29,457 bases of DNA from Thamnocephalis sphaerospora (Eukaryota; Zoopagomycota; Zoopagomycetes; Zoopagales; Sigmoideomycetaceae). A program made the translations under genes and the position numbers. Every line of letters begins with the position of its first letter. Position 1 is the stretch's first letter. Location: the NCBI GenBank assembly GCA_003614735.1, contig KZ992573.1:1-29457 (forward strand). The letters are read 5' to 3'. The notes beneath the pieces are model-generated. The model saw only the letters and a list, made by a program, of their open reading frames with translations, was not told the DNA's origin and searched no databases. Shown in pieces: positions 3,775 to 29,216 of the stretch.

Positions 3775-3931
3775 CACGTCTGTTCGCCCACTTGACTGCC
3801 CTTTGCTTATCCATTCATTTTGTGTGTGTATTGGCCAATGTAAATTTTTGCATTGAATGGCTGGCTCTGCTGCTTGTCTCGCCACAGGCACACGCGCCAG
3901 CGAGAAAGCTACCGTGGGCATTGCTCCACCA

Positions 3932-10116: not shown

Positions 10117-11525
10117 TCATAGCACGCGCTTGTCCGCTTGGTACCGCTTCATGGCACCGCTTACCGCTAGTCGATCGGCCGCTTCGTTGCCTGGAATGCC
10201 AACATGGGCACGCACATGAGTCTGCAGGCCAGCAAAAGGGCAAGACGGTCGAGATCAGCAGACCGACGGCCGCAGTGCGCCACTATGCCCAGCACCCACG
10301 TACAAAGGTAACCGGTTTCTGACGTGTCATCAGTAGACTGTCCATCCGACGAAACAGATCCTCATTCAGTACTGCCTTGCCGTCCGACTTGCGCCAATTA
10401 CGTTGCTTCCAATTTCGAATCCAAGTACGGGCCGCTGGTAGTACGACCGTCATGAGCTTGATCTGCGGACTTGTGGTCCAAAGCAGAACTCACCGTTTAC
10501 CACGTAAGCACTGTCGGTGCGAATTTCTACAGGGCGAGCATCACCAGCTGTTTCTAGTGCTCGTATCACTGCCTATAGGATGCTTGCATGTGAGCATGAC
10601 CAATAGGTTTATGGTAGCTGGCCATTCCATATGCTCAGATTTACCGTAATCTCTGCCCGCTGGTTTGTCTGCGTTGGTCCAGGCAGCGGTTCGCTAAGAT
10701 TACTACCAGCCATCGACAAGTTAGCTATGATGCTTGACCATGACGGATAATGCATGTTTGCAGCGTACCGTTCATCGTTGGGTCCAAAAAATACGCCAAT
10801 GCCAGCACAAGCACGCGTTGTTCCGTTGTTGATGCCACTTCCGTCCGTGTAGACAATCAGCGGCGCATTCGGATTCTGATTACTGGCCTCTACGACCATC
10901 GGATCGTTTTTCTGCCGCAAAGATCATGCGATCAAATGATGGTTGCATTAGACCATGCCACATGCAACAGAGGCCACAGTGGTCCTGTTGGCCTGTAGCA
11001 AACATCCAGCAACCGCTACTCACCCGTATTTCACTCACTGTCCGCTGTTTGGTATCGATAGGCGGATGGCTGGTGATTTGGCCGCGCGATGGCAGTGTAT
11101 ATGGCTGGTAGCGTTTACGCTCTATCGGACAAGCAGGCAGACAGACATGAGCATGGTCGGTCTGCAGGACAGGCCTGGCCAGCACCCACCTTTACCGGCC
11201 GCTGCAAGGGTTGCGGCCGCGGCTGCCTCTTGCGCAATCGGGTTCCGTGCGGACGCGGTGGACGGTCGGCCCGACACAAAGGCGTGCGCCTCGCTTTGGG
11301 ATTCAAAGCGCTTGAATTCTGGCTTGGGAAAACCGTGCACCTGAGCTTGGCATTCTTTCCTGCCACCACCACCGCCACCGTCCACCCGTCCAGCGTCACA
11401 GGCATGAGAAGGAGCGACGCAATCCAGCGCGTGATCTAGTGCGCTCACCAAGTGCGGAAAATGCCTACTTGTCGACCACGCCGCACCGCATAGTAGCCTA
11501 CGCCGCCCGTCTTCTTCTTGGGCAT
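10117..11525 (-). CDS. Ribonuclease H1 with N-terminal hybrid-binding domain
   Basis: Degrades the RNA strand of RNA-DNA hybrids such as R-loops and primers. Eight exons (-): 11525-11449, 11359-11196, 11121-11024, 10911-10769, 10693-10645, 10572-10494, 10434-10304 and 10221-10117, 281 aa, all junctions in phase. Residues about 10-50 form the viroplasmin/hybrid-binding domain ([16 protein letters not shown], then [10 protein letters not shown]). After an alanine-rich linker, the catalytic domain has all four acidic residues: D136 (Y-T-D-G-S), E175 (N-Q-R-A-E), D197 (R-T-D-S-A-Y) and D263 (G-N-E-A-A-D), plus the H253 flap loop. Fungal RNase H1 usually has this layout. Seven introns in an 846-nt coding sequence and the hybrid-binding domain argue for a host gene rather than a retroelement RNase H. 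Confidence 0.92.
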
Positions 11526-11795
11526 GGCCGATAAAAGCTGCTGCAGCTTTAAGCGCGGAATGGCGACGGTAAGAAACGCAGGCAGTTTCCACCCTGCGAG
11601 ACGTGGCTGGCAGAATCTGCTGTGATGGTTGCGGCCCGCAGGCAAAGAAGAGAAAGGAGAAGGAAAGGTGACCGGCACCAGCACCAGGTGACCTTTCTCT
11701 TCGCCAAGTAGCATGGACGATGCACTGTTTATTACCGCGCAGTGCGATCGGTCCAGGCGTACATGCCCGGAACACGACGCGACAGGCGCAAACGT

Positions 11796-12417
11796 CTAGA
11801 CTTCTTGTGTTGGCGCAGTCACCGTCACCGGCTTGAGCGGCTCCTCGCCAGCAGCAGCGCGCTCCGCTTTTGCATTCGTTTCGTGCTCGCGCAGCCACTC
11901 CTCGTCGTTCCAGACTGGCCGCCGTAGGAGGTGTTGAGGTCGTGTGAGCGCCAATGCCTCTGAGCAGCGCCAGGCACGGGTACCTACTCGCTTTGTTCAT
12001 CTGTTCGCGGCCGCGCATCGGCTTGGACAGATTCACCTTGATGGTGCGGCCAAACATTTCCGAAAGGTGCATGTTGTCGATGGCTGCGCGTGCATCCGCC
12101 GCGTCCATAAAGTCGACAAAGCCAAAGCCGCGGTGTCCTTCGCCTGAGCGCCCGTCACGCTAGCATCAGCAGCTGCGCCGTGCTCATGCGGTCCGCCGCC
12201 CCGCATTCACATACTGCGCTTCGGATCGCTGGGAATGTCCACGTCGTTGATGTCGCCAAACGGCAGAAAGGCCGCATGGAGCATGTCCTTGGTCACCTGG
12301 TCGTCGAGACCGCCTGTAGCAATGTTGCCGCCAGCAGCGTCAGACAGCGCGTCAGTCTCGGGTGTTTGCGCGGCTCTACTCACTGACAAACAAGGTAGAT
12401 CGCTTTCGCTCGGTCAT
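11796..12417 (-). CDS. RRM-only protein related to the RRM of cyclophilin-33 (PPIE)
   Basis: RNA-binding protein of 135 aa from exons 12417-12384, 12313-12215, 12143-11988 and 11914-11796 (-). The first splice rebuilds RNP2 (T-L-F-V-S-G-L) and the third exon carries RNP1 (H-R-G-F-G-F-V-D-F). The wider sequence [30 protein letters not shown] and V-N-L-S-K-P-M-R matches the PPIE/Cyp33 RRM very closely. In animals this RRM is followed by a cyclophilin peptidyl-prolyl isomerase domain. Here the protein instead has the short linker [14 protein letters not shown] and stops after P-T-Q-E-V, with no isomerase domain between here and RNase H1. Cyp33 works in spliceosomes and chromatin; a spliceosomal role is inferred. 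RNase H1 starts 271 bases downstream on the same strand. Confidence 0.9.
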
Positions 12418-12504: not shown

Positions 12505-12507
12505 GAG

Positions 12508-12580
12508 CGAGCATACCAGGACTCGAACCTGGAATCTCCTGATCCGTAGTCAGGCGCCTTATCCATTTGGCCATACGCCC
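12508..12580 (-). tRNA. tRNA-Arg (anticodon ACG), intronless
   Basis: 73 nt on the minus strand. The acceptor stem GGGCGTA pairs with TATGCTC, with G as discriminator. The D arm contains TGGCCAAATGGATAA (A box), the anticodon stem CCTGA/TCAGG encloses loop CTACGGA with anticodon ACG, and the T arm CCAGG-TTCGAGT-CCTGG contains the B box. The 34A would be edited to inosine to read CGN codons. No intron and no encoded CCA, as in eukaryotic nuclear tRNA genes. Confidence 0.95.
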
Positions 12581-12819: not shown

Positions 12820-14301
12820 TTACTCCACAAACCGCCAGATGCGCACAATGCCGTCGTCACCGGCCGTGGCCAACAGGTGCCCGTGTTCAGCCAGTGGGCA
12901 CCAGATGGCTGCGTTGACATCGGCAGTACCGTGCGCATCGCTTTGTGTGCAGCTTAGATCGAGAGAGACGGTTTCCTCGGAGGGATCGTCGGTTACTTGC
13001 TGTGGACGGGATATCGCATCGTGTTCGTTAGCATGTGCATATCCTCTCAAAAGCACTGTACTCGTGTACTTGCCAGCATTTTGAAGATGCGAACGCTGTT
13101 GTCAGCCGAGGCGGAAGCAATGTAGCCGTGCACCTTGGACCATGACACCGAATAGATGCAGCGTTCGTGCTGCCCAGACGCGGTATCAACGCACTTCCAC
13201 ATAGGCTCACGTCGCTGCGGCACAAAGACAGAGGCTGTGCGCGCCATGGTTGCACTCAGCATATGGACACGCCATCAGGCTGTCACCGCATTCACGTACA
13301 CTGTTCGCTCGCGGATGGTGCTTCGCGACGCCAAATCTTGAGCGTCTTGTCATCACTGCCAGACACAATGTGCGTGCCATCTCGATCAAAATCAACGGCC
13401 CACACGGTCGACTGGTGGCCAGTAAGGATACTTGCGCAGAACCAGTCGTCGTCATCCTCACGCCACACACGGATCGTGTCATCGTAGCTGGCTGAGATGA
13501 GCAGCTAGTCAGACAGTACATGTCAGCCAAATGTCTACACACTTGCGCTATCCTACACAGCATACCTCCTCTTTGGGATGCCACGCAACCATTTTGACAT
13601 CCTGAGTATGCTCTTGCAGTACACTGAGGCACTCAAAGTCCTCGCCATCCTGTCCAACTGCGTAGCGCACATGTGTGAGTTTGCATGTCTGCGCCATCTA
13701 GCGACAAGCTATGACGTACCTTCCCAGATCCAGACGCTTTTATCACGGCTGCAGGTGGCTAGAAGCGCGCCATCCGATGACCAGGCAACGCTCTTGACCT
13801 CGTTCTCATGGCCTTCCAGCGTCGCTGTGCATTCATAGTCTACGACATGGGCGTTAGCATCGCTGTCGATTGTGGCTGCCGGCCCGGCCACGCTCGCCTG
13901 CCTGCCTACCGCCATTCTCCTCTTCCTGTTCCCAGATTCCAGTCGAGGCGTCAAAGCTTGCTGTAGCGATCGCACGGGCAGACGGCGAGTAGGCGACACT
14001 GCGTACGGTTCGCTCGTGCGCACCGTCAAGTATATGCACACATTGCCAGTCCTGCAACGGCGCGGTCTCTTCGCCCGTCGCTGCAGGCTGGGAATTGCGT
14101 GGCGCCCAGACGCGCACCGTCTTGTCACCACTGCAGCTGGCCAGCTCTAGCCGCTTTGGGTTCCAGCTTACCAGCCAGACACGGTCAGCATGGCCTGCAG
14201 GCGCGCAACGTTAGAGCAGACGGCCAGCGGAACACTCGCTGCTGTGTATGCTCTCTAGTCTGCCTACCCTTGAGCTCGGCGAGCAGTTCAAGCGTTGGCA
14301 T
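12820..14301 (-). CDS. CIA1: Cytosolic iron-sulfur protein assembly WD40 protein CIA1 (CIAO1)
   Basis: Targeting factor of the cytosolic Fe-S assembly machinery that, with MMS19 and Cia2, hands Fe-S clusters to nuclear and cytosolic apoproteins. Exons (-): 14301-14268, 14194-13910, 13839-13720, 13657-13566, 13504-13300, 13234-13074 and 12999-12820, 358 aa, all in phase. It forms a seven-bladed propeller. Recognisable blades include [21 protein letters not shown] with [23 protein letters not shown] with [16 protein letters not shown], and the last blade [10 protein letters not shown]. Intron 6 is a GC-AG intron (CTG|GCAAGT...CATGCTAAC...CCACAG). The C-terminal part carries an acidic insert between blades 6 and 7. 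Divergent from the cyclin gene. Confidence 0.93.
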
Positions 14302-14564: not shown

Positions 14565-16001
14565 ATGAATCCTACGCCTACCGAGCCGCTTGTTCCGCCG
14601 CCGCCCTCAGTGGCGGTGCCAGCAGGTAGCAAGCCGTACCCAGGCGCGCTTCCACCCATGGACTATCTGCTGCTGTGTGGAGATCTGCTTGACCTGTACG
14701 GCCCTGGCGTATATGAGGCGTGAATGTACCTTGTTTTGCTGACACGCTGCTCTGGCCGTGCAGTCCGCGCATAACGACTGCCGTAGCTCAGATTTACATG
14801 CACCGGTGCAACCGCCACCTGGCCCGTGAGGCAGAAAGGCACGGCACTGCCGGTAGATCTACCACGGATTTGGATGTTTATGTAAGGATGTTGCGGATGT
14901 GCGGTGTACGACTGCGACGACTGACGGATGGGTGTGCTATTGCTACTGGCATCGGCGCAGTTGATGACTTCAGCATGCTTGCATTTGGCATGCAAGTCAA
15001 CCGAGACACTGCGCAAGGTGCGCGACATGGTGAATGTCGGCAATCTGTAGGTGATGCGCGTCTGCGTGCGAGTGGACAAATGTGCTGACAATGATGCTTG
15101 CACGACTGGCGTTTCGGATGGCACTGCAACGGCCAGGGTCCTTCACGCAAAGCAGCCATACTTGAATCTTGATGACGTGGGTGGCCTAGTTGCGCGGTGG
15201 ACCATTGAACTCAGCGCTAATCAGGACGTTGATTTGGTTTATTCTAGCGGTATCAACGTCTGCGAGACTCGCTGGTAACGGCCGAACTGATGGTGCTGCG
15301 GATACTGCGGTTTGATGTCAACGCTCAGCCGCCGCATGTCTGGGTGGCTCGTATTATTCGGCGCACGCTGGAGCCGGAGCGGTACGCGGATATTTACGAT
15401 GATGATGGCGACACGCTGAGCGATGATGGCGAGGAGGGTGCAGTGCGTGCTAGTGATACGCGGACCGATACCAATGGTAGGCTGTGCGGTGACGGACATG
15501 TGCTGGCGGGTGTTTAGCAGGTTTGCTCACTCATTCTGCGCCAATACCACACAACGCAATAGCGTCTGTATCACATCCGATGGCGCGCACATTTGCACAG
15601 CTTGCCTGGGTGCACGCCAACGACAGGTATATGGCATGGCTGTAACGCATGCGTATGACACCGCTGATGCCTGCGCTCGCCCACATAGCATGCGGTCAGA
15701 GAAACTGGCGTTAGACTATGCACCGCGCGTGCTTGCCCTTGCTAGCGTGTATATGGCATCGCATGCCCTCGATATCCCGCTTCCGCAGCCATTTGAAACG
15801 GTGAGTTGACACAATATGCCCTTTAGATATTTGCAGCTGACACATGCAATGTGCATAGTGGTGCACACTCTGGGGAGAGCCAAATGCAGGGCAAATCAAA
15901 GGTGAGTGCGCACGGCCGGGACGTATTGGCGGTCACTGAGCTTATTCTTGCAAAATGGGCTGCATTCAGCGGCTGTGCTAGATTTAGCGGCCATCTATTG
16001 A
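14565..16001 (+). CDS. Cyclin Q / cyclin L-like cyclin (transcription-type cyclin)
   Basis: Regulatory subunit for a cyclin-dependent kinase. Nine exons: 14565-14719, 14764-14881, 14961-15046, 15137-15176, 15248-15476, 15563-15626, 15689-15800, 15859-15901 and 15970-16001, 292 aa, all in phase. The first cyclin fold includes A-V-A-Q-I-Y-M-H-R, A-C-L-H-L-A-C-K-S-T-E-T and R-K-V-R-D-M-V-N-V; then Y-Q-R-L-R-D-S-L-V-T-A-E-L-M-V-L-R-I-L-R-F-D-V, closely resembling the cyclin Q (FAM58) and cyclin L block. The second fold has L-A-W-V-H-A-N-D-S, Y-A-P-R-V-L-A-L-A-S-V-Y-M-A-S and I-P-L-P. A helix I-K-A-A-V-L-D-L-A ends the protein. An acidic insert (D-I-Y-D-D-D-G-D, then D-D-G-E-E-G) separates the folds. 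No RS domain follows, so cyclin Q (CDK10 partner in animals) fits better than cyclin L; which one is not settled. Confidence 0.85.
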
Positions 16002-16325
16002 AGCGTGCGGATGCGCGCCACGCTTGTTAGTCTAGCGCATTTGCGCTCTACACACGTGTGCGATCATCGCTCAACAGTAGCATTTATATGTAAAGCACTT
16101 GGATATCCGCATCACTGTCGTATACAGTGCTTGTTTTGTCTTTTAGTTGGCCGCAAATCCTTTAAAGTAGTGGCTCAAGCAACGCAGCAAGTCGCGGTGG
16201 ATTGAGCTGTCAAAGGATATGGCGCAGTATGTAAAAGTGATTTATTATGAGCAAGTATAGAGTACACTGACTGTTTGACGGGCTGCATGGCAACTGTTAT
16301 GCAGTGCTCAGCAAGCACATGGCTT
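16002..16325. other. Convergent 3' intergenic region
   Basis: About 320 bases between the cyclin stop and the stop of pseudokinase copy 1. No gene seen. The last 100 bases resemble the 3' flank of the other pseudokinase copies only weakly. Confidence 0.4.
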
Positions 16326-17713
16326 TCACGGTATCTTGTACCGCGTAGACCTGTCTTCAGTCTGCTCTCTTGGAGCTGGCTCGACCAGCCAACTGGGTGT
16401 TCCAACGATGGGCAGCATTGACTTTAGATAACCCCATAGCCCCCAGAATGAGCTTTCCACTAGCGTGTTTCTGAAAAAGCGGAGACTATCATCGATGGCG
16501 ATTCTGTTTGCGTTAGATCGGTGTTCTGGCTTAGGCTTCAGGAGACTCTCCATTTCGTAAAGCAGTGCTCCGCTCCTTGCCTGGATCGGCAGATATGAGT
16601 TTTTGCCGGTTTTCGCCACCTGTTCCATTGTCTGCTGCAACTCCTCTGCAGACACCGGGAGCATTGCACCATGGCTTTTGGAGTATGCAAAGCCGTAGGG
16701 CGGATGGCCGTTTGTCATGAAATACAGTGTTGCGCCAAACATCCATGCATCACGCGAGCGTTGATCTGCTTTTGACCCAACGTAGTCCTCCGGCGGAGCA
16801 TAGCCTTTTGGTTTGATGATTGACGCCTGAGGAAAGCTTTCTCGCACTTGCGATCCTTCAAAGCCTGTAAGGACCAGGTCAACGCCGCTTTCTTCCTTGT
16901 TGGACTGGAAATAGACGTCTATGCCATGAAAAAGCGCAGCTTGTGAGACTATGTAAAACCTGCGCGGCATAGGACCTGCACCTACTGTCTGGCGTGATGT
17001 TGCCGTGAATAAAACCGGATTTGTGCACAAAGGAAAGCGCTGTATGCCGGATGCGTGAGCGCTGGCTTATGACAGCAAGTCATCAAAATCATATAGCGGC
17101 ACTTGCCAGAGGATAGATCGGTGGCAACTCTGGACACAGCGGCATCCTTTGAATGCTCCAGCGTCATGGACATGTACTCTCGCAGACTATATCCCTTGAT
17201 CACCTCCAGCACCAAGCAGTGATAACCGTTTGCTGTCTGGAATGTGCTCAGTACTTTCGGAACTCGTACAGGCTCAAAGGACGGGATGGTTTGTCTGAGT
17301 GTCTGGTTGGCGGGTCAGCATGATTGCGCGCATGCTTTGCGCGCTAGCTCTGTGCTTACCTTGAGCGCTGCAACCTCGTTGTTGTGCTGATTCACGTGTG
17401 GTGTGCATTTGAGCAAACCGTTCATATTGCTGTAGTCCACAACGGCAGTGCGCATTCCACTACCCTCTTCCGGGTGCCATTTTACGATGTAGATGCCGGG
17501 TTGGTTGGGCCAGTCGGCATCGGTGGTGGACTGCGTCGAATTTGCAAATATCGAATCATAGCTCGGCGGCATGTCTGGCCGAGCGGAAACCTGGTGTGGC
17601 GCGTTACCACTAGGCAGTGTGCCGGGCTGTGTCGGGCGCGCACAGGCCAGATAGCCGCTTAGAAACACGGCGGCGACGATAATAAAATGTGAGTGAATAG
17701 GAAAAGCGCACAT
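16326..17713 (-). CDS. Secreted pseudokinase-like protein, copy 1
   Basis: 398 aa from exons 17713-17360, 17302-17107, 17039-16986 and 16918-16326. A hydrophobic signal peptide (to about A25, V-A-A-V-F-L-S-G-Y-L-A-C-A) precedes a short linker with P-P-S-Y-D-S and a protein-kinase fold: beta-3 lysine K102 in L-L-K-C, alpha-C glutamate E113 in N-N-E-V, hinge L-E-V-I-K-G-Y-S, catalytic-loop H-G-N instead of HRD, G-F-E instead of DFG, and a well-kept alpha-F region R-D-A-W-M-F-G-A-T-L-Y-F. Loss of the catalytic and metal-binding aspartates predicts no phosphotransfer (inference). Intron 2 starts with GC (G|GCAAGT), unlike the other copies, and exon 4 is 3 nt longer. It is the most diverged copy. 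The glycine-rich ATP loop is not recognisable. Confidence 0.8.
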
Positions 17714-19071
17714 GGTGAATGATTAGTGGTGCCAAGTGTGGTTCTGCTTGTATTGGAAGTAGGGCAGTGGCAGATGTGGGAAGACTCTAAGCTATATGGC
17801 GATGTAAAGTGCGACGGTGCTGTTCAGGCTGAAAGGCTTGGCAGGCGGGGTGCGCTTTGTGGGCGTGGTTGCTCGCCAATGCTTGGTTGCAAATCTTTTA
17901 CGCAAATGGCCAGGCTTCAGCCTCGCAAGGCCCAAGAATAACAAGTGCCACGCCGTATACGGGTGGCCACGAGGTGCAAACAACGTACAAGGCAGTTCCG
18001 TGGCTCTGTTTGGTTTTACTACTTGCGTGGCCATAACCCACGGGGTGCATACAGTGCACACACCATGCAATCATTATCAAAGCGTGGTTGTGCTACTGAT
18101 AAAGGAAAGAGTCATGTGTATGGGGTAGAGTGATGTGTCGACGTTTTAGGCGCTATGGCCACCAAGGACCAGACCATATTTCACCGATGCCATCCTGTAC
18201 TCGGCTTCTCACCACGTTCAACGCACCGCTCGCCATCACATCTTTTCATTTAACAGCTCCTTGCGTGTTGCATCTCGTTGCTCAGCATCGCTGCTGCTGT
18301 CGCGCTCGCGGGGGGTTGTGTTTGCCAACTCGTCTGTCGATGCGGTGTTGCAAACCTGCGCCAAGGGGGTCGGTACTTGTGCAGAAAGGGCTGAGTAGCC
18401 TCAACAAAGTCGCAATAGGGCTGCTGGTATAGACATGGGCTGCATGCTGTAGACAGTCTGTTGAGCTAGATGCGCTGCGTTGGAGAGAGCGCGAGAGCGC
18501 GGCACAAAAGAATATGCGAGGAAAGGCTTGTGTTTATTCTGTTGGCGCGCGGTGACAAGGCTTTTATAGCTATGCTGCTGTGCGTGCGTACTAATGGTGG
18601 AGGTAAAAGAGTGGCTGGGCTAACATATGTGGTCAAGGCGGCAGAGAGCGGCCGATCCAATGACTGGCGGCGACAACAGCGTGCTTAATCACAAAGCAGG
18701 CCTGCCAGTGTCGACGGCAAGCACGCTGATGTGGGCAATGCCAGGAATGAAGGTGGCTAGGGTGAGCGCCGCGCTGTTCAACTCGCAGATCGCGGATGTG
18801 GCATGACGCACTGATGCACATCAGACGTATGGTACGCAACGCGTGGCGGTTCAACCCGGTATCGCCTGAAAAGTGTATTTGCAAATGCATTTCGTTTATA
18901 TATTGTATTATTCAATAGCGTGACTCTCACAAGCAAATAGAACCGTAAGATTGTATGCAAAGAGTGGTAGCGGGGGTGATTGATCCGACGGCATACAGCG
19001 GCAAAGAAGCATTACGCTGCGCGACTAACCATATCGTAGCCACCAAGCGGTGCGCAGCAAGCATTCGATGT
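17714..19071. other. Spacer between pseudokinase copies 1 and 2
   Basis: The first 380 bases (read on -) are the shared upstream module of copy 1. Near 18831-18900 (-) lies a block like TATAAACGAAATG...GGGTTGAACCGCCACGC that also occurs (on +) near 20850-20934, 23155-23237 and 25507-25592. Bases about 18960-19071 are the 3' flank of copy 2, resembling those of copies 3 and 5. Between 18130 and 18800 only unconvincing short frames occur. Confidence 0.6.
17790..18095 (-). promoter_or_regulatory. Shared 5' module of the pseudokinase family, copy 1
   Basis: Read on the minus strand it contains CCAAACAGAGCCACGG, then CTCGTGGCCACCCGTATAC and later GCACTTTACATCGCCATA, all repeated with small changes upstream of the other four genes at about the same distance from the ATG. 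On this copy the module is also an open frame (A-P-R-G-H-P-Y-T-A-W). Confidence 0.65.
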
Positions 19072-20460
19072 TTACAGAGGCTTGTACCGTGTAGACGTGT
19101 CTTCAACATGCTCTCTTGGGGGCGGCTCGACCAGCCAGCTAGGTGTCCCAACGATGGGCAGTCTCGACTTTAACAAGCCCCATCGCTGCCAGAGGTTATT
19201 ATTCTTTGGCATGCTTGCAAACGTTTTAAAATGCTCGCTAAAGGCGATATCGTCGGCTCCAGCGCGGCCATTAGGGATGGACACCAGAAGACTTTTTATC
19301 GCGTAAAGCAGAGCTTTGCTCCTGGTTTTGACCGGCAGATATGAGTTTTTGCCGGTTTCCGCCACCTGTTCCATCGTTTGCTGCAGCTCTTCTGCAGGCA
19401 CCGGAAGCATTGCTTTGTGTCTTTTGGAGTATGCAAAGCCGTAGGGTGGATGGCCGTTCGTCATAAAGTATAGTGTTGCACCAAACATCCATGCATCACG
19501 CGCGTACTGAAACGCGTCTGACTCGACGAAATCCTCCGGTGGACTGTAGCCTTCTGGTTTGATTATCGATGCCTGCGGGAATTCCGAAAAGGGGTGTGAT
19601 CCTTCAAAGCCCGTTAGGATCAGCTTGAATGCACCTTTGCTGTTTAGCTGAAGATAGACGGCTGCGTTATTGGTAGATGCGTTGCGTCAGTTTACATAGA
19701 TGATTGCGCGAGAGCATGATGACGGTACATACTGTCTGGCGTGATGTTGCCGTGAACGAAACCATTTGCGTACATTGTGAAGAACGCTACACATTGATGG
19801 CGTAAGCACTAGTTTGCGGTTGCAAGTCATCAGAGCCGGTTAACGCTGCTTACCAAAAGATAGATAACGTGTTATTTTGGTGATGGTTACATCTCTTTGA
19901 TGCTTTGGTAGCATGGTCCTATACTCTCGCAGACTACATCCATCAATCATCTCCAGAATCAAGCAGCGATAGCCGTTGCTGGTCTGGAACGTATCCAGTA
20001 TTTTTGGGAATGCCAATGAATCGGGGAGCGAGGTGAGTCCTCCAAGTGACTAATTGGCGAGTCAGCACGATTGCGCGCATGTTTTGCGCGCTAGCTCTGA
20101 ACCTACACTGAGCGCTGTAACCTCGTTGTTGTGCTGATTCACGTGTGGTGTGCACTTGAGCAGGCCATTCGTGCTACTATAGTCCACAACGGCAGTGCGC
20201 ATTCCATTGCTCTGCTCAGGATGCCATTTTACGACATAGAGGCCAGGTCGGCTGGGCCATTCCGTATCGCTGACTGACTGCGCTGGATTTGCAAACAACG
20301 TATCGTAGCTTGGCAGCATGCCTGGCTGAGCGGGAATCTGGTGCGACGCGCTACCGCTAGGTGACATGTCAGGCTGTGTCAGGTCCGCATAGGACAAATC
20401 GCTGCTCAGCAACGCGGCGGCGGCTATAACCAACAGCGTGCGAATAGAAAAGGCGTGCAT
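19072..20460 (-). CDS. Secreted pseudokinase-like protein, copy 2
   Basis: 397 aa from exons 20460-20107, 20049-19854, 19786-19733 and 19661-19072. Signal peptide MHAFSIRTLLVIAAAALLSS. The N-lobe keeps K102 (L-L-K-C) and E113 (N-N-E-V); the hinge reads L-E-M-I-D-G-C-S, giving one extra cysteine. The catalytic loop is V-H-G-N-I-T-P-D and the DFG position reads L-T-G-F-E-G-S. The P-P-E-D-F block stands where APE normally is, followed by the conserved R-D-A-W-M-F-G-A-T-L-Y-F and G-H-P-P-Y-G-F. The C-terminal tail I-V-G-T-P-S-W-L-V-E-P-P-P-R-E-H is shared by the family. The linker has L-P-S-Y-D instead of P-P-S-Y. Transcribed away from copy 3 across a 1.1-kb divergent region. Confidence 0.85.
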
Positions 20461-20539
20461 GGCGAATGGTTAGCGATGCCAAGTGTAGTGCTGCTTGTAT
20501 TGGAGACAAGGTGAAAATGGAGATGTAAGGGCTGTAAAC

Positions 20540-20840
20540 TTTATGACACACAAAATGTGGCAAAGTTTAAGCTGAAAGGCATGGCGAGTGGATGTGCTTG
20601 TAGGCGCAGCTGCTTGCCAATATTTGGCTGCAGATTCTTTTACACAAACGACCGGGTTCCAGCCTTGCAAGACACAAGAATAACGAGTGACACGCTGTAT
20701 ATAGGTGGCCACGAGGCGCAAGCAACATACAAGGCAGCGCCGCAGCTTTATTTGGCGTCTGTGGTCTGTGTGGTTGATACCCCGCAAGGCCCATCCAGCA
20801 CACGTGCCATGCGGTTTTCGATTATTGGTTTATTTGCTCG
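20540..20840 (-). promoter_or_regulatory. Shared 5' module of the pseudokinase family, copy 2
   Basis: Read on minus: GGCACGTGTGCTGGATGGGC, then GCCAAATAAAGCTGCGG, GCGCCTCGTGGCCACC and GCAAGGCTGGAACCCGG, each closely matched upstream of copies 1, 3, 4 and 5. Confidence 0.65.
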
Positions 20841-21234
20841 TGCGAACCACGCTACCAAATGATACGATGTAAAGACGAAATGGTTTTCCAGCACCACTCT
20901 TGCAAGCATACGCCGAGTTGAACCGTCGCGTCTGTGCATGTTCCTGCTCTACATGCATGGATCTCAACTATGAGAAAAGAATTGCTGCTTAATCGGCGGC
21001 TGTTTTGTGGCAGCCGAGAATGATACAGTACGTCTGCTGTGCGCCTAGATAGACTGAGCCGATTGCGTGAGCTGCCTGCGCTATGCCTTCAGCCGCTCAT
21101 ATTACTGCACGTGCTATGTGTTTCCACGCTGCGGACTGTGCTGGGGGATATACTGCGACTCTTAGTGGCCGATGTGTCATAACATTGGTACTTTTCCTAG
21201 TAGTCAGGCACATGACTCTTGCCATTATCGGTAG

Positions 21235-21540
21235 GTAATGACACATGCACTAGATGAGCCCCGTAAGCTGTAGCCCACGCGAGCAAAGAAAACCAAATAG
21301 AGTCATGGAGCTGCCTCGTATGTTGCTTATGCCTCGTGGCCGCCCATATACAGCGCAATGTCCGCAGTTTTTGCATTCTGCAGGACTAAATCCTGGCCAT
21401 TTGTGTAAAAAAATGCAGCCTAATATCGGCGAGCAGCTGCGCTCACAAAGCGCACTCACTTACAAGCCTTTCGTCCTCAGCCATATCATTGCACTTTGCA
21501 TCGCCATAAACTTTAGAGCCTTTTCGTGTCCGTCTCCGCC
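21235..21540 (+). promoter_or_regulatory. Shared 5' module of the pseudokinase family, copy 3
   Basis: Contains AACCAAATAGAGTCATGG, GCCTCGTGGCCGCCCATATA, GGCGAGCAGCTGCGCTCA and GCACTTTGCATCGCCATA, matched upstream of the other copies. In this copy the module is an open frame that reads straight into exon 1, but the signal peptide starts at the downstream ATG. Confidence 0.65.
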
Positions 21541-21568
21541 CTGCCTCCGATACGGGTGGTCATTTGCC

Positions 21569-22965
21569 ATGTGCGCTTTTTCCGTTCGCACACTTTTGGC
21601 TATAGCCGCTGCCGTACTGCTAAGTAGCGGTCTGTCCTGCGCAGGCCCGACGCAGTCTGGCGCACCATCTAGCAGCAAAATATCTCCCCAAATTCTAGCC
21701 CAGCCCGATTTACCACCGAGCTATGATTCGATATTTGCAAACCCCGCACAATCGCTCGCATTAGCTGACCATGAAGCCAGCTGGCTCAACCAAACTGACC
21801 TCTATATCGTAGAATGGCATCCCGAGGAAAGGAATGGGATGCGCACGGCAATCGTGAACTACAGCGGCGTACAGGCCTTGCTCAAATGCACTCCAGATGC
21901 AAATCAACACAACAACGAGGTTACGGTGCTTACTGTAAGCTTGCAGCGAGTGCGCAGAGCATGCATATTCTTGTGCTAACTCGTCCACCAGACACTCAGA
22001 GGGGAGATTGTATTCTCTGTGCCCTTTCTGGCTCCAGAGATCCTGGACACATTCCAAGCAAAAAACGGCTATCACTGCGTGATTCTGGAGATGATTGATG
22101 GATACAGCCTGCGAGAGTACAAATCCATACTACCAAAATATCGAAGAGACGTAGTTGTCGCCAAAATTGCCACCCGTCTAGCGTCCGGTAAGCGTTGCTA
22201 AACAATTCTAATAACGTCCAGCCGTAAGCTGATGCTGGATTTCAATGCGTAGTGCTTTCCATCATGTACATGAGTGGCTTTATTCATGGCAATATCACAC
22301 CAGACAGTACGTGTAGTGTTTATGATCATGCCACCATTTATGTAAGCTTATACGACGCACTTACCAATGTCGCAGCCGTCTATCTCCAGCCAAATGGCGA
22401 GAATGATTTCAAGTTGATCCTTACAGGCTTTGAAGGATCGCAGCCTCTTTCCGACTTTCCGCAGAAATCAATCATCAAACCAGAAGGCTACAATCCGCCA
22501 GAGGATTTCGTCGACTCGAAAGTTTATCAGTACGCGCGCGATGCATGGATGTTTGGAGCAACGCTATACTTTATGACGAACGGTCACCCGCCTTATGGCT
22601 TCAAGTATTCCTGGACTCAATGGGCAATGCTCCCGGTGCCTGCAGAAGAGTTGCAGCAAACGATGGAGCAAGTGGCAAAAACCGGGCAAAGCTCATATCC
22701 ACCAATTCAAACCAGGAGCAGAGACCTGCTTTACGAGATAGAGCGTCTTTTGGAGCCTGATCCTGAAGACCGTGCTGAAGCTGACAGCATTGCCTTTAGC
22801 GACTTTTCGAATGTCGTCGAAAGCATGCCAATGGGATATATTCTTTGGGAACAATGGGACCACCTAAAGTCGAAACTGCCTATCATTGGAACGCCTAGCT
22901 GGCAGGTCGAGCCGTCCCCAAGAGAGCACGGCGAAGACACGTCTACGCGGTACAAGACTCCGTAA
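21569..22965 (+). CDS. Secreted pseudokinase-like protein, copy 3
   Basis: 401 aa from exons 21569-21934, 21992-22187, 22253-22306 and 22376-22965. Intron 1 has a perfect GTGCTAAC branch site. The start at 21569 gives the signal peptide MCAFSVRTLLAIAAAVLLSS; an in-frame upstream ATG at 21254 is rejected because it would bury it. Landmarks: P-P-S-Y-D-S linker, K106 in L-L-K-C, E117 in N-N-E-V, L-E-M-I-D-G-Y-S hinge, F-I-H-G-N at 197-201 replacing HRD, L-T-G-F-E-G at 221-226 replacing DFG, P-P-E-D-F, and R-D-A-W-M-F-G-A-T-L-Y-F. C107 and C151 are the only cysteines after the signal peptide. The fold is kinase; activity is not expected (inference from the lost aspartates). Confidence 0.87.
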
Positions 22966-23999
22966 AAACTAAATGCTTGTTGCACATCACTTGGTGGCTA
23001 CGACATGCTTAGTCGCGCAGCGTAATGTTCCTTTGCGCTCAATCATAGTGAGCGCACTTTTATATGCTACTGCTACTGTATGCCATCAAATCAGTTGTCT
23101 TCCGCCGCCACAATCGCATAAGGCTTTACAGGTTTGTTTTGCGTACATGGGCCATGCTACCAGGTGATGCAATGTATAAACGAAATGGCTTTTCAGCTCC
23201 ACTCTCATTGGCAGATACAGGGTTAGACCGCCACGCCTTTACGTGTTTTGTTTCTACAGATACCACGCAAGAATAATTGTGGCTTAGAGTCGGTTGGCCT
23301 GCATTGACTTTCTGTTAGCACGAACCTATGCCTTGACTTGTAGGGTCACTGTATCTTGTGCAGGCTATTTGCGCTCATGCCCGGTGTTGGCCGTGCAGCG
23401 CGTGTCATGATTCAATCGTATATTGTGTCTGCTGTGTCTACACATGCTGAGCCGACCGCGTGGGCTAGCCTGCAGCTGTTCATGTTGCCGTTGGTGCGAC
23501 GCTTGGCGGCAGCGACATTGCATACCATATGCTTCCACATGGCAGACTCTGTGGAGAAATGCACGGTGATTCTCAGTGGCTGATGTTTCAAAGCATTGAT
23601 GTTTATTTGGTAGCTGTACACATGGCTCTTCTACTATCGGTAATCTAATGGCACGTGTGCTGGATAAGCCTCGTGGGCTGTAAACCACGCAAGCAACGAA
23701 ATCCAAATAGAACCGTGAACTACCTTGTGCGCTGTTTGCATCTCGTGGCCGGCTGCACGCAAATGTGGTACTGTTATTCTTATGTCTTGCGAGGCTAGAG
23801 CCCGGTTATTTGCTTAAAAATCTGCAGCTAAATATTGGCGAGCAGCTGCGCCCACAAGCGCATCCGCTCGCCAAACCTTTCAACCTGGACACCACCGCCG
23901 CACTTTACATCGCCATACAGTTTAGAGTCTTTTTCATCTCCGTCACCACCTTGCTTTCAATACAGGCAGCATCGCGTTTGGCACCACTAGCTATTCGTC
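22966..23999. other. Spacer between pseudokinase copies 3 and 4
   Basis: Starts with a 3' flank like those of copies 2 and 5 (TTGGTGGCTACGACATG, GCGCAGCGTAATG). Carries the repeated block at 23155-23237, then the conserved upstream sequence of copy 4. No independent gene seen; a 75-codon frame at 23356-23583 has no family resemblance. Confidence 0.6.
23640..23960 (+). promoter_or_regulatory. Shared 5' module of the pseudokinase family, copy 4
   Basis: Contains ATGGCACGTGTGCTGGATA, ATCCAAATAGAACCGTG, CATCTCGTGGCCGGC, GCGAGGCTAGAGCCCGG and GCACTTTACATCGCCATACA, with the same order and spacing to the ATG as in the other copies. Confidence 0.65.
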
Positions 24000-25321
24000 A
24001 TGCACGCATTCACCGTGCGCGCATTTTTGGCTATAACCGCTGCTGCGCTACTAAACAGCGGCGCATCACTCCAGGCATCAGCACAATCCGACTTACCTCC
24101 AAGCTATGAGTCGGCACTGTCAGCCAGCGATACCGAATGGCCTAACCAACCCGGCCTCTACGTCACGAGATGGCTCCCCGAGGGGAGTAATGGCATGCGC
24201 ACTGCTATTGTAAACTACAGCAGTGTAAACGGTCTGCTCAAGTGCACTCCTCACATGGATCAGCACAACAACGAGATTGAAACGATCGGCGTAAGCTCAG
24301 GACTATCGCACGCAACATGCGCGCAATCGTGCTGACTCGCCAATCAGACTCTTAGAGGAACCATCACGTCCAACGAGACATTACCATTCCCAGAAATAAT
24401 GGATACATTCCAGACAAATGATGGATATCACTGCTTGGTTCTGGAGATGATTGGCGGGTACAGTCTGCGAGAGTACATGCCCATGGTGCCACACTATCAA
24501 AAGGACGTGGTCGTCGCCAAAGTTGCCAGCTACTTATCCTGCAGTAAGCATCTTTAAGCGATTCTGATGACTTGCACTCATAGACTGACGCTTGAACTTT
24601 CAACACAGTACTTTTCGTTATGCATAGGAGGGAGCTTGTTCACGGCAATATCACCCCAGACAGTACGTGTAATCCTCGTGCCCGCGCAGCTGTCCGCGCA
24701 AACTGACACGGTGTATTTACCAATGGCGTAGCCGTCTATGTCCGATGGAACGACGCAGGAGACCTCCGAATAACCCTTACAGGCTTTGAAGGGTCGCAAC
24801 CACTTTTGAACGTCCCGCAGAAATCAATCGTCAAACCAGAGGGCTACAGTCCACCAGAGGATTTTGTTGAGTCACGGGTGTATCAGCGGCCGCGTGACGC
24901 GTGGATGTTGGGCGCCACGCTATACTTTATGGCGAACGGCCATCCGCCCTACGGCTTTGAATACTCTGCAAGCCACGAGGCAATGCTCCCGATATCCGAA
25001 AATGAGCTAAAAAAGACAATGGTAAGGATGGCAAGGACCGGCAGAAGCTCATATCCGCCGGTTCAAACAACGAGCCATGAGATAAACCGCGAGATCAAGG
25101 ACCTCTTGCAGCCCAGGATTGCGCTTCGAGCTCACGCCAGCAGCATTGCATTCAGCCGCACTTTCGATATGGCTGAGAATATGACGTTGGGGGATATTCT
25201 TTGGGAACGATGGGACTATCTAAAGTCAATGCTGCCCATTGTTGGAACGCCTAGTTGGCAGGCCACGCCGCCTCCAAAAACGCGCGTTGAAGACAACCTT
25301 ACGCGGTACAAGACTCGGTAA
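24000..25321 (+). CDS. Secreted pseudokinase-like protein, copy 4
   Basis: 376 aa from exons 24000-24290, 24348-24543, 24609-24662 and 24732-25321. Shortest copy because the linker after the signal peptide (MHAFTVRAFLAITAAALLNS) lacks about 20 residues. P-P-S-Y-E-S, K81 in L-L-K-C and E92 in N-N-E-I are present. The hinge is L-E-M-I-G-G-Y-S, the catalytic loop L-V-H-G-N-I-T-P-D, and the DFG position L-T-G-F-E-G. Exon 4 keeps R-D-A-W-M-L-G-A-T-L-Y-F and the P-S-W-Q tail but differs most in the late C-lobe helices. Intron 3 acceptor is GGCGTAG. There is an extra cysteine at the end of exon 2 (Y-L-S-C). All exons remain open, so it is not an obvious pseudogene. Confidence 0.82.
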
Positions 25322-26324
25322 GGGTCAGATGCCTGTTGCACGCCACTTGATGACTATTACATCGCCAGTCCCACGATGCAATGCAATTTTGTGCTTATTT
25401 ATAATAAGACTACTCTTGCATATTGCTGTCACCGTTTGTCGTCGGATCGACTGTCCTTTGCCGCCTCCCTTCGTATACGGTCTTGCGGTTTACTCGTTTG
25501 TGTAAGCTACGCTATCAGGCAACAAAATGTATAAAAAGATACCTCTCCAGCATCACCCTCTCAGGTAGACACCGGGTTAAGTTGCCACATATTTAGGTGG
25601 TTGGTCAAACAACGCGACTTTTTCCAATGCTCCTGCGTATTGTGTCCCAATGGCCTTGGCCACTGTCGCCAGCATGCCCTTTATGCTTGCCCTAATCGCA
25701 GTTGTGGAAAAAAGACTGTTGTTTGACTACGGTTACTTTTGTGGTCACTGACGATGGTGCAGTACACCGGCGATGCATCTAGACAAGCTGGGTTGACCGT
25801 ATGCGCATTTGATGCTGGTGCGGTGCTTGACGATAATGATATCGCGTTGCATGCGTTTCCACGCACCAGATTGTGCTAGGAGATATATGATGGCCCTCAA
25901 TGACTGGCATTTCAAAACATTGGCACATTCCCTGGTGGTAATACACATGGCTCTTTCCATTTCAAGTCATCTAATGGCACGCGCACTGGATAGATCTCGT
26001 GGGCTATAACCCGCGCAAGCGAAGAAAGCCAAATAGAGCCACGGTACTGCCTCGTACGTTGCTTGCGCCTCGTGGCTATCGATATGCAGCGTGGTACTTG
26101 CTACGCTTATGCTTTGCAAAACTAATGTTTAGCCGTTTGCATAAATCTGTGACCAAATATCGGCGAGCAGCTACATTTATAAAGCGCACCGTTTATCTGG
26201 TCTCTCAATCCAAGTCACATTACCACATTCTGCATCGCCGCATAGTTTGTACTTTCCTACGCCTGCCTTCGCATATTGTCTCCGATAAAAGCGGTACCGC
26301 GCTCAGCACCATCATTCATTCGCC
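25322..26324. other. Spacer between pseudokinase copies 4 and 5
   Basis: Repeated block at 25507-25592, then sequence homologous to that upstream of copies 3 and 4 (for example CGTTTCCACGCACCAGATTG near 25855, similar to GTGTTTCCACGCTGCGGACT near 21118). No gene seen. Confidence 0.6.
25970..26315 (+). promoter_or_regulatory. Shared 5' module of the pseudokinase family, copy 5
   Basis: Contains ATGGCACGCGCACTGGATAG, AGCCAAATAGAGCCACGG, GCGCCTCGTGGC and ATATCGGCGAGCAGCT, matching the modules of the other copies. It ends in CATTCGCCATG at the start codon, as in copy 2. Confidence 0.65.
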
Positions 26325-27696
26325 ATGTGCGCTTTCTCTGCTCGCAGACTTTTGGCTATAGCTATCACTGTGTTGCTAAGCAATGACCTGTCGTATGCAA
26401 GCCCAACACAACCTAGCGCGTCGTCTAGCAGTGGCGCATCACTTTGGGCGTCTGGCCAATCCGCCTTGCTGCCGAGCTATGATGCGACACTGTCAGCCGG
26501 CGATACCGAATGGCCTAACCAGCCCGGTCTCTATGTCGCAAAATGGCTCCCCGAGGAGAGCAATGGAATGCGCACGGCAATCGTGGACTACAGCGGCGTG
26601 CAGGCCTTGCTCAAATGCACTCGAAATGCGTATCAACACAACAGCGAGGTTAAAGCGCTTAATGTAGGCTTGGAACTAGTGCGTACAACATGCGCGCAAT
26701 CATGCTGACTTTTCAATTAGGCACTTAGAGGAACTAGCTTGTCCAATGAGACATTACCATTCCCAGAAGTACTGGATACATTCCAGACGGATAATGAGTA
26801 CCACTGCTTGGTTCTGGATATGATTGACGGGCACAGCCTGCGAGAGTACATGCCCATGGTGCCACACTATCAAAAGGACGTGGTCGTCGCCAAAATTGCT
26901 AATCAGTTGGCTTCCGGTAAGCATCACTAACCGGCTCTGATGACTTGCAGCCGCAAGCTGACGCTCGAGCCATTGATGCATAGTGCTTTTTGCTGTGCAC
27001 CAAAAAGATTTCATTCACGGCAATATTACTCCAGACAGTACGTATGCTCCTTATGCCCACGCAGCTATTCACGTACGCTTACACGACACACTTGTCAATA
27101 ACACAGCTGTCTACCTCCGGTCGGATGACGAGGGTGCACTCAAGTTGGTCCTTACAGGCTTTGAAGGGTCGCAAGCGCGAGATGACTTTCCGCAAGAACC
27201 AACTGTCAAGCCAAAAGGCTACACCCCACCAGAGGATTTCGTCGAGCCAAAAGCATATCGGCGCTCGCGCGATGCATGGATGTTTGGCGCAACGCTGTAC
27301 TTTATGACAAATGGCCACCCGCCCTACGGCTTTGCATACTCCCAAAGCAGCGGGAAAATGCACCCGGTATCCGAAGAGGAGCTGCAGGAAACGATGGTGC
27401 AAGTGGCAACAACCGGCAAAAACTCATATTTACCGATTCAAACAGAGAGCAATGATCTACTTTATGAAATGGAGGGTCTTCTAGAGCCTAAGCCTGGACG
27501 CCGCCTTGAAGCCGACAGCCTTGCCTTTAGCGACAGTTTGGAAGCCGCCGAAAAAATGTCGATGAAAAACAGCCTCTGGGAACGATGGGACCATCTAAAG
27601 TCAATGCTGCCCATCATTGGAACGCCTAGTTGGCAGGTCGAGCCGCCTCCAAGAACGCGCGTTGAAGACAACTCTACGCGGTACAAGACGCCGTAA
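26325..27696 (+). CDS. Secreted pseudokinase-like protein, copy 5
   Basis: 392 aa from exons 26325-26663, 26721-26916, 26984-27037 and 27107-27696. Signal peptide MCAFSARRLLAIAITVLLSN. K97 in L-L-K-C and E108 in N-S-E-V mark beta-3 and alpha-C; hinge L-D-M-I-D-G-H-S; catalytic loop F-I-H-G-N-I-T-P-D at 188-196; T-G-F-E-G-S at 213-218; activation-segment end P-P-E-D-F; alpha-F R-D-A-W-M-F-G-A-T-L-Y-F. C98 and C142 are the only cysteines outside the signal peptide. Exon 2 is closest to that of copy 4 (shared R-E-Y-M-P-M-V-P-H-Y-Q-K-D-V-V-V), which suggests recent tandem duplication or conversion between neighbours. Confidence 0.87.
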
Positions 27697-28016
27697 GGAT
27701 CGGATGCTTGTTGCATACCGCTTGGTGGCTACCATATAGCTGAACGTACAGCGTAATGCTTGTTTGCGTTGGATCGCAGTAAGCTTTTGTGCGTCTTTAC
27801 CGCTATCTGTCGCCAGATACATCGCCTTTCATCAGACACTCTTTGCATCTGTCAGTAGATACCCATTCATGTCTTTGCCATCAACTATCCAGTAGATGGT
27901 GTACAACCGCACAGATCCTATCGCCTTACTCTTGCATGTTACTATTTAAACAAACATCCATTCTATGAGCACAGCAATTTTATTAGGCTGCCGTGGTGCA
28001 AAAAGGGGGTCGATGT
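27697..28016. other. Convergent intergenic region
   Basis: About 320 bases between copy 5 and the thiolase stop. The first 100 bases resemble the 3' flanks of copies 2 and 3 (CTTGGTGGCTACCATAT, CAGCGTAATGCTTGTTTGC). The rest shows nothing. Confidence 0.5.
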
Positions 28017-29216
28017 TTAAGCGACATTCTCCAGGATGACAGCAATACCCTGGCCGCCGCCAATGCATGCGGAACCAAGTGCAAACTGCTTGCCCTGGCG
28101 CTGCAGCTCGTGCGTAAGGTGCGCAAGAATGCGGCTGCCCGACGCGGCCAGCGGATGACCAATGGCGATGGCACCACCGTGGGCGTTTGTAATCTCGCGG
28201 TTCAGGCCGAGTTCACGCTCCACGGCAAGGTACTGGGCGGCAAAGGCCTCGTTCACCTCGATCATCGACATGTCTTTGAGGGACAGGTTGGCACGGGCCA
28301 GAGCACCCTTGATGGCCGGCACCGGACCGATGCCCATGATGGTCGGCTCGACGCCCGACACCTGGTAGGCCACCAGACGTGCCAGCGGCTTCAGGTTGTA
28401 CTTGCTGACGGCTTCTGCCGACGCGACGACCACCGCAGCCGCACCGTCGCAGATGCCAGACGCGTTACCAGCGGTCACGGTGCCGTCCGGACGCTTGAAC
28501 ACCGCCGGCAGCTTGGCCAGGCTGGCAAGCGTGGTCTGCGGACGCGGGTGCTCGTCGGCCTCAACCAGCTCGGTGCCCTTGCGGGTCTTTAGCTCGATCG
28601 GGCTGATTTCCGTCTTGAAGATGCCGGCCTCCTGTGCCTTGGCAGCGCGCTGCTGGCTTTCGAGCGCATACTGGTCGCAGTCGGCACGAGTCAGGTTGTA
28701 CTTTGTGGCAAGGTTCTCGGCCGTGACGCCCATAGGGCACTGGGTGGGATAGCGGTCGACGAGCGCAGCGGCCAGCGTGTCCTCCAGCTTCAGGTCCACG
28801 CCGTAGCGGGTGCCCCAGCGTGCGTCACGCAGCGCATACGGCGCCTGGCTCATGCTCTCCGAACCGCCGGTGAGCACCACCTCAGCCTCGCCGAGGCGGA
28901 TCTCGTGGGCAGCGTTGATGACGGCCTGGAAGCCGGATCCGCACAGGCGGTTCACGGTCAGCGCCGGCACCTCTACCGGCAGGCCGGCGCGCAGGCCAAC
29001 GTGGCGTGCAAGGTAGGCAGCATCGGTGGAGGTCTGGCACACGTTGCCGACAATGACCGAGTCCACCGGCGTGCCAGCCGGCAGCGAGGCCAGCGCAGCC
29101 TTTGCAGCGTGCGCACCGAGCTCCGTGGCGGTGAGGCCGCGCAACTTGCCACCGAACGCACCAAACGGCGTACGCTTGGCGGCCACGACAAAGACATCGG
29201 CGAGCTTCTTGGACAT
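28017..29216 (-). CDS. 3-ketoacyl-CoA thiolase / acetyl-CoA acyltransferase (ACAA2-like)
   Basis: Cleaves 3-ketoacyl-CoA with CoA to acetyl-CoA and a shortened acyl-CoA (fatty-acid beta-oxidation), or catalyses acetoacetyl-CoA formation in reverse. It is 399 aa, the family's usual length, intronless and GC-rich with strongly biased codons, unlike its intron-rich neighbours, suggesting high expression. Motifs: R-T-P-F-G-A-F-G-G near the N-terminus, nucleophile C92 in N-R-L-C-G-S-G-F-Q, G-G-S-E-S-M-S, N-E-A-F-A, H in G-G-A-I-A-I-G-H-P-L-A-A-S-G, and the second catalytic Cys in A-C-I-G-G-G-Q-G near the C-terminus. These resemble ACAA2 (mitochondrial) more than the peroxisomal form. There is no obvious peroxisomal PTS1 (ends E-N-V-A) and no long presequence, so location is open. 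Confidence 0.93.
   Translation of the reverse strand: MSKKLADVFVVAAKRTPFGAFGGKLRGLTATELGAHAAKAALASLPAGTPVDSVIVGNVCQTSTDAAYLARHVGLRAGLPVEVPALTVNRLCGSGFQAVINAAHEIRLGEAEVVLTGGSESMSQAPYALRDARWGTRYGVDLKLEDTLAAALVDRYPTQCPMGVTAENLATKYNLTRADCDQYALESQQRAAKAQEAGIFKTEISPIELKTRKGTELVEADEHPRPQTTLASLAKLPAVFKRPDGTVTAGNASGICDGAAAVVVASAEAVSKYNLKPLARLVAYQVSGVEPTIMGIGPVPAIKGALARANLSLKDMSMIEVNEAFAAQYLAVERELGLNREITNAHGGAIAIGHPLAASGSRILAHLTHELQRQGKQFALGSACIGGGQGIAVILENVA

Follow-up and report, generated by a model that had tools for sequence, protein, structure and literature searches.

Clustered genes for predicted secreted pseudokinases in the mycoparasitic fungus Thamnocephalis sphaerospora belong to a lineage-specific kinase family

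What use would a fungus have for a row of kinase-like proteins that appear to be secreted and have lost the residues essential for catalysis? The question is raised by a 29,457-base stretch of DNA (the window; contig C150 of the Thamnocephalis sphaerospora genome that was searched, 14.46 Mb in 594 contigs), in which five paralogous genes, g1 to g5, lie between positions 16326 and 27696. The window-encoded proteins found by protein search are catalogued under T. sphaerospora, which the available part of the genome paper ranks with the obligate mycoparasites (PMC6784888). We consider it reasonably probable that g1 to g5 are secreted mycoparasite pseudokinases, drawn from a lineage-specific family of kinases and pseudokinases, that serve as binding modules at or inside the host fungus.

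The first-pass annotation of this DNA, made from the letters alone, described five intact paralogues in this interval, and these are indeed present, with open spliced frames in all five. On the minus strand lie g1 (16326..17713, 398 amino acids; exons 17713-17360, 17302-17107, 17039-16986, and 16918-16326; HGNITPDN and LTGFEGSQ) and g2 (19072..20460, 397 amino acids; exons 20460-20107, 20049-19854, 19786-19733, and 19661-19072; HGNITPDT and LTGFEGSH). The plus strand carries g3 (21569..22965, 401 amino acids; exons 21569-21934, 21992-22187, 22253-22306, and 22376-22965), g4 (24000..25321, 376 amino acids; exons 24000-24290, 24348-24543, 24609-24662, and 24732-25321), and g5 (26325..27696, 392 amino acids; exons 26325-26663, 26721-26916, 26984-27037, and 27107-27696), each with HGNITPDT and LTGFEGSQ. 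Neighboring repeats lie 2.7 kb apart for g1 and g2 and about 2.4 kb apart for the three plus-strand genes. Kinase-domain amino acid identity among the five is 54 to 63%, which is too divergent for amplification copies.

All five genes have four exons, separated by three short introns (57, 65 to 67, and 67 to 71 nucleotides) that lie at homologous positions in a five-way DNA alignment and have phases 0, 1, and 1 throughout; the third interrupts the catalytic loop, in the codon right after TPD. An unspliced reading, in which the genes would be broken, was rejected: in-frame stops then follow directly on exon 1 in each gene, and in g1, g2, and g4 the frame also shifts or ends after HGNITPDS. Intron removal clears every one of these interruptions. 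When applied to other family members, the same splicing method yields models that are 100% identical to public ones wherever the two overlap (P0004, P0005, P0013, P0016, and others). The spliced frames were preferred over the public models of the window genes because the upstream methionine belongs to that same open exon and because the five genes agree; motif calls in the window were made from these frames, with the public models set aside. Intron 2 of g1 (17040-17106) is of the GC-AG type, starting with GC instead of GT, and the other four genes read GTAAGC at the same place.

The five proteins pass the gathering cutoff of the Pfam family Pkinase (PF00069; 31.7 bits) with scores of 35.5 to 53.4 bits, and the top 60 results of PDB sequence searches include kinases of the CaMK, CHK2, ULK, and DAPK types; a kinase fold is predicted from sequence. 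The Pfam matches start only at position 53 to 63 of the 263-position profile, so that the calls of the β3 lysine and the αC glutamate rest on the family alignment, where both are retained in five of five proteins and β3 reads LLKC. The active-site signature put forward in the first-pass annotation was recovered in full: HRD has become HGN, KPxN has become TPDT or similar, and DFG has become GFE (HGNITPDT in g2 to g5, HGNITPDN in g1, GFE in all), and the αF block is kept as RDAWM in every protein. PPED at the place of APE and the string LTGFEGS are likewise common to the five. The aspartate of HRD is replaced by asparagine and that of DFG by glycine, and the asparagine of KPxN is replaced by threonine in four proteins and kept in g1. 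In g5, the key residues are Lys97 (β3), Cys98, Glu108 (αC), Cys142 (β5), Asn192 (HRD Asp place), and Gly214 (DFG Asp place). A pseudokinase lacks the HRD aspartate, the DFG aspartate, or both, and here both are gone in all five proteins. Ordinary phosphotransfer is not expected, because the catalytic base aspartate is now asparagine and the Mg-binding aspartate is now glycine.

Certain pseudokinases have activity of other kinds, and the window proteins might work by an unusual mechanism, with another acidic residue standing in or with other chemistry such as AMPylation. The retained lysine and glutamate, together with the glutamate that follows the phenylalanine of DFG in GFE, would suit such activity. 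Both essential aspartates are, however, gone in nearly all of the clade to which the window proteins belong, and we regard this explanation as improbable.

Altered catalytic elements may also be a sign of decay, in which case the genes would be functionless copies of secreted kinases. This is in line with the many copies in the genome, with the sibling model L093, which has an in-frame stop, and with the extra introns in the models of L057 and L060, which could hide breaks. Against it, open frames and splice sites are intact in all five window genes, and the ratio of nonsynonymous to synonymous substitution rates (dN/dS) in the kinase domain, over the ten pairs of g1 to g5, is 0.21 to 0.41 by NG86 (0.16 to 0.56 by YN00). 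Moreover, 25 of 334 scored columns are invariant in the 22-row alignment of the window clade, and the new HGN/GFE motif is conserved over these rows: the altered active site is itself conserved. Decay is thus a highly improbable account of the genes, and for the five in the window it was rejected on dN/dS and motif conservation. Outside the kinase domain, YN00 gave no value for many pairwise comparisons of the signal peptide, the linker, or the tail. The asparagine of HGNIT lies in a sequon in all five window proteins; N-glycosylation of this residue was rejected as a family feature, since the position that completes the sequon is threonine in only 12 and serine in 1 of the 22 clade rows.

The same measurements bear on a role in self/non-self or partner recognition of the fungus, as in mating or hyphal fusion, where diversity would itself be the function. 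A large, diverse, and partly clustered family whose active site is altered yet conserved would fit this role. The kinase domains are nevertheless constrained overall, with no pair at dN/dS above 1 there, and Pfam found no mating or fusion gene in the ten other open reading frames of the window that were scanned. We give this possibility little credence.

Secretion is suggested by the N-termini, whose hydropathy fits a signal peptide in all five window proteins. A hydrophobic stretch was found in 25 of 25 methionine-starting N-termini tested (24 from the family plus L080, a kinase outside it), with best 10-residue means of 1.73 to 3.35; ordinary kinases scored by the same measure (five of eight, those with an open reading frame found) gave 0.44 to 1.42. 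An automatic cleavage-site rule often placed sites inside the hydrophobic stretch and was not used. All 13 rows that include the N-terminal linker (g1 to g5, L051 to L057, and L060, within a 14-row subclade) have (P/L/S)P(S/D/N)Y(D/E) as a motif there. It takes the form PPxY in 10 of the 13, including g1, g3, and g4 in the window, and the surrounding linker is variable; PPxY here is a possible WW-domain ligand. At the other end of the protein, a C-terminal ending of the type ED(T/N)STRYK is conserved in many rows of the same subclade, g1 to g5 among them, and the last residues of the five window tails are RYKIP, RYKPL, RYKTP, RYKTR, and RYKTP.

To what family do these proteins belong? Genome searches with four queries from different branches returned 101 to 116 exon matches each, ordinary kinases included. 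The final alignment holds 50 family rows: the 5 window proteins, 41 other loci of the genome (including L067b, the second of two copies on a single stretch), and 4 public models that match none of the modelled loci (P0010, P0019, P0020, and P0021). Left out were the duplicate or partial copies C500 and C89, the fragments C452 and P0023, and eight matching loci (C562, C552, C154, C161, C153, the second on C421, C54, and C111); L080 and L081, kinases outside the family proper, were set apart. The family thus comprises at least 50 genes, perhaps about 60. The matches on C425 and C500 have the same coordinates on both contigs, and C89 and C428 share a partial copy, nearly identical, located where a contig ends; each pair is probably one locus assembled twice. 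The sibling models were fitted to a profile, so that intactness is claimed for the window's five only. Phases 0, 1, and 1 recur in the last three introns of 26 of the 37 modelled loci outside the window, including five of the nine loci that have both aspartates, the lysine, and the glutamate, which indicates that the gene structure is common to the branches.

In the tree the 50 rows are grouped with support of 100/99. Class II (23 rows including the window proteins; support 100/98) carries the window signature. Over its 22 scored rows, the HRD aspartate place is asparagine in 21 and serine in 1, the glutamate of GFE is present in 21, and the β3 lysine, αC glutamate, both cysteines, and PPE are present in all; the DFG aspartate place is glycine in 18 of the 21 rows with data, and L057 retains the aspartate. 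Class III (L072, L073, L076, L088, L090, L092, L093, and L094; support 100/99) has changed in another way. Its β3 lysine is gone in all six rows readable there, the HRD aspartate place is altered in seven of eight (L073 retains it), and DFG reads DLH, DMH, or GLH, with the aspartate kept in six of eight. Since lysine and base are missing, class III is probably catalytically dead.

The remaining 19 rows include 12 with HGDIK..N, the lysine, the glutamate, and either DFD (11 rows) or DFG (L074): L070, L071, L074, L075, L083, L085, L086, L087, L089, P0019, P0020, and P0021. These siblings are putatively active secreted kinases, DFD in place of DFG being unusual. The other seven rows are partly altered, as in L068, which has HGDIKPEN together with TGFD. 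A further change of the HRD aspartate is seen in L069 (HGN), which pairs with L082 (HGD) at 100/100. A single loss shared by classes II and III was rejected, if weakly: joining them lowers the log-likelihood by 9.39 (p-AU 0.029), with the groups named after the first tree and the backbone poorly resolved. The tree is rooted on two generic kinases with long branches, and our view of the direction of change, from intact to lost, draws less on the tree than on kinase biology. Outside the family proper, L080 (775-1893, plus strand) is one open frame with a signal-peptide-like start, HGDLKGKH, IIDLGTT, and both cysteines, and it may connect the family with ordinary kinases.

The two cysteines run through all of these classes. 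All 49 rows that have data (two lack that part) show a cysteine directly after the β3 lysine position, and all 51 show a β5 cysteine, L080 being counted in both and the row models having been fitted to a profile that already contains both cysteines. They are retained even in the six rows in which another residue replaces the lysine (LLTC twice, VAAC, WIGC, TIRC, and FLTC). Four outgroup kinases have valine or isoleucine at the first position; at the second, two have valine or isoleucine and the other two are gapped. Cys98 and Cys142 of g5 mark the sole cysteine positions that are invariant across the 22-row clade. Both are also among the 13 residues that are invariant and identical between class II and the 12 catalytic rows; of these 13, the lysine, the glutamate, the Pro-Glu of APE, the αF tryptophan, and a late arginine are usual kinase residues, and some others are family specific. 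Because β3 and β5 are adjacent in the kinase N-lobe, an N-lobe disulfide is the simplest reading of the pair; the predicted bond is probably formed and would fit secretion.

Relatives of the family were sought by protein search. With the g5 protein (8,000 best candidates scored), 14 strong relatives were found, all from T. sphaerospora and four of them the window's own, and a single further match had E = 0.07. A profile of eight catalytic-branch proteins found 10 T. sphaerospora proteins down to 2.1e-49, followed by a drop to 1.2e-16; of the other 110 matches listed (best 120 of 403), the named ones were animal, bacterial, or Trichomonas proteins, and many were nameless. No specific relative beyond T. 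sphaerospora was seen among the matches listed, in a protein set that includes the sister genera. As a control, the thiolase encoded at 28017-29216 of the window is 87% identical to a protein of Syncephalis pseudoplumigaleata and 69% identical to one of Piptocephalis cylindrospora, which shows that both genera are represented in the set and that the contig comes from Zoopagales, not from the host. The family was described in no title or abstract start found among open-license papers. In the available text of the genome paper, a search by word turned up no instance of "effector" or "secreted" and two of "kinase", each for a metabolic enzyme (PMC6784888).

Pkinase_fungal (PF17667, FunK1) is a fungal kinase family, and its cutoff is passed over part of the domain by the siblings P0016 and P0018, with P0020 below it. 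The window proteins, however, gave no match to it at E ≤ 1, and PF00069 gives the siblings much better scores (104.8 versus 30.8 bits for P0016). The proposal of the first-pass annotation that these are secreted pseudokinases without a named fungal family is supported. Judged by their sequences, g1 to g5 are, with high confidence, predicted secreted pseudokinases of a new family.

Alternatively, g1 to g5 could be residents of the parasite's own secretory pathway, where they would regulate sibling kinases phosphorylating secreted or cell wall proteins. A precedent exists in animals, where the secreted pseudokinase FAM20A supports its active sibling FAM20C; by description, the arrangement resembles the one found here, although these are animal proteins of another kinase subfamily. 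The signal-peptide-like starts and the cysteine pair suit the endoplasmic reticulum (ER) and Golgi equally well, and the family does include siblings with catalytic residues. An ER-retention ending was not seen in the five window tails, however, and an arms race accounts more readily than housekeeping for some 50 copies in one species when the sister genera have none among the matches listed. We therefore hold residence in the parasite's own pathway to be unlikely.

Our preferred reading, that of binding modules directed at the host, follows from the combination of a signal-peptide-like start, a retained Lys-Glu pair, and the loss of both aspartates, a combination that suggests a secreted protein serving to bind or scaffold and not to catalyze. 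The proteins would enter the secretory pathway, with the N-lobe braced by the β3/β5 disulfide. The Lys-Glu pair would hold the N-lobe in a kinase-like form, perhaps nucleotide loaded, and the surface would bind a partner, either a host protein or a catalytically intact sibling to be scaffolded or regulated. The example of ROP5 and ROP18 in Toxoplasma suggests such pairing of dead with active members; for the fungal proteins both pairing and nucleotide binding are speculative. The site of action would most likely be at or inside the host fungus, and host-facing action is proposed with moderate confidence from lifestyle and analogy.

Several observations weigh against this reading. The signal peptides were judged from hydropathy alone, and the public models P0006, P0007, P0008, P0009, P0011, and P0012 start downstream of the predicted signal peptide. 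The public g1 model (P0007) begins at Met47, after the hydrophobic stretch, and omits internal segments; those of g2 and g4 also omit internal segments, and that of g5 is eight residues short. In the short linker and tail (28 to 42 and 29 codons, too few to weigh), dN/dS exceeds 1 for some pairs, by NG86 for 3 of 10 in the tail. No such family came up in the sister mycoparasites with the searches made here, which argues against its being a tool of mycoparasitism in general. The protein search picks up relatives that have short exact words in common, so that distant homologues in Syncephalis or Piptocephalis may be absent from the matches listed. Finally, the assembly is a single-cell co-assembly, and chimeric joins could affect gene order.

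Among the closest known parallels is the rhoptry kinase (ROPK) family of Toxoplasma and other coccidia (the ROP2/ROP5/ROP18 family), described in the available part of its analysis as lineage-specific secreted kinases and pseudokinases with a disulfide (PMC3682881). Like it, the family studied here appears specific to one parasite lineage, mixes likely active kinases with pseudokinases, and has a family-specific cysteine pair. Several ROPKs also have glycine for the catalytic-loop arginine (HGK, HG[R/K/H], and HGH), and the ROP24 subfamily has GFT for DFG, according to the same text (PMC3682881). The differences it allows one to draw are that several ROPK pseudokinases have a basic residue at the HRD aspartate place, where the window proteins have asparagine; that most ROPK genes are single exon, against four exons here; and that the αF WC motif with its C-lobe disulfide, itself missing from some ROPK clades, has no counterpart in the window clade, whose invariant cysteines lie in β3 and β5 (PMC3682881). 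T. sphaerospora is moreover a fungus and not a coccidian, with another host. The likeness, drawn by description and not by sequence comparison, would be one of working principle and not of kinship. Another filamentous pathogen, Phytophthora infestans, has a secreted, host-translocated kinase effector, CRN8; it differs in coming from an oomycete with a plant host and in being a modular CRN effector described, in the part of the paper available, with kinase activity (PMC3426532).

Taken further, the ROPK parallel would make the family an independently evolved, rhoptry-kinase-like arsenal of a fungus-on-fungus parasite. Dozens of disulfide-braced secreted kinases and pseudokinases would be delivered into host hyphae, with the dead HGN/GFE members binding and steering catalytic ones or capturing host proteins, and the PPxY linker could be bound by WW domains of an Rsp5-type ubiquitin ligase of the host. 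This extended version is doubtful, if conceivable. The interest of the family is broader, since mycoparasites face host cells built like their own and little was found in print on effectors of Zoopagales. A one-species family in which active-looking, half-changed, and dead secreted kinases have a common gene structure is a natural experiment on the route from kinase to pseudokinase and offers a second, independent case for comparison with the Toxoplasma rhoptry kinases. The β3/β5 cysteine pair is a simple handle for spotting secreted kinases elsewhere.

The T. sphaerospora genome was obtained by single-cell sequencing from dual culture with Cokeromyces recurvatus as host, according to the available text (PMC6784888). 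A search for the pattern TTAGGG x3 gave no match, but it skips simple repeats, so that no conclusion on a telomere-linked location is drawn. The minus strand of the window also carries a partial 5S rRNA (1-62), a Band_7 C-terminal region (3763-4608), a tRNA-Arg(ACG) (12507-12580), and a WD40 repeat (13709-14131). At 10609-12108, also on the minus strand, there is possibly a ribonuclease H1 gene in pieces: the open reading frame at 11122-12108 has a Cauli_VI/RNase H1 N-terminal domain, and 10609-10920 matches RNase_H below the Pfam cutoff. The G+C fraction per 1-kb segment is 0.48 to 0.54 across the array (16001-28000) and 0.55 to 0.65 in most segments elsewhere, the low exceptions beyond the array being 0.48 (1-1000), 0.52 (1001-2000), and 0.52 (10001-11000).

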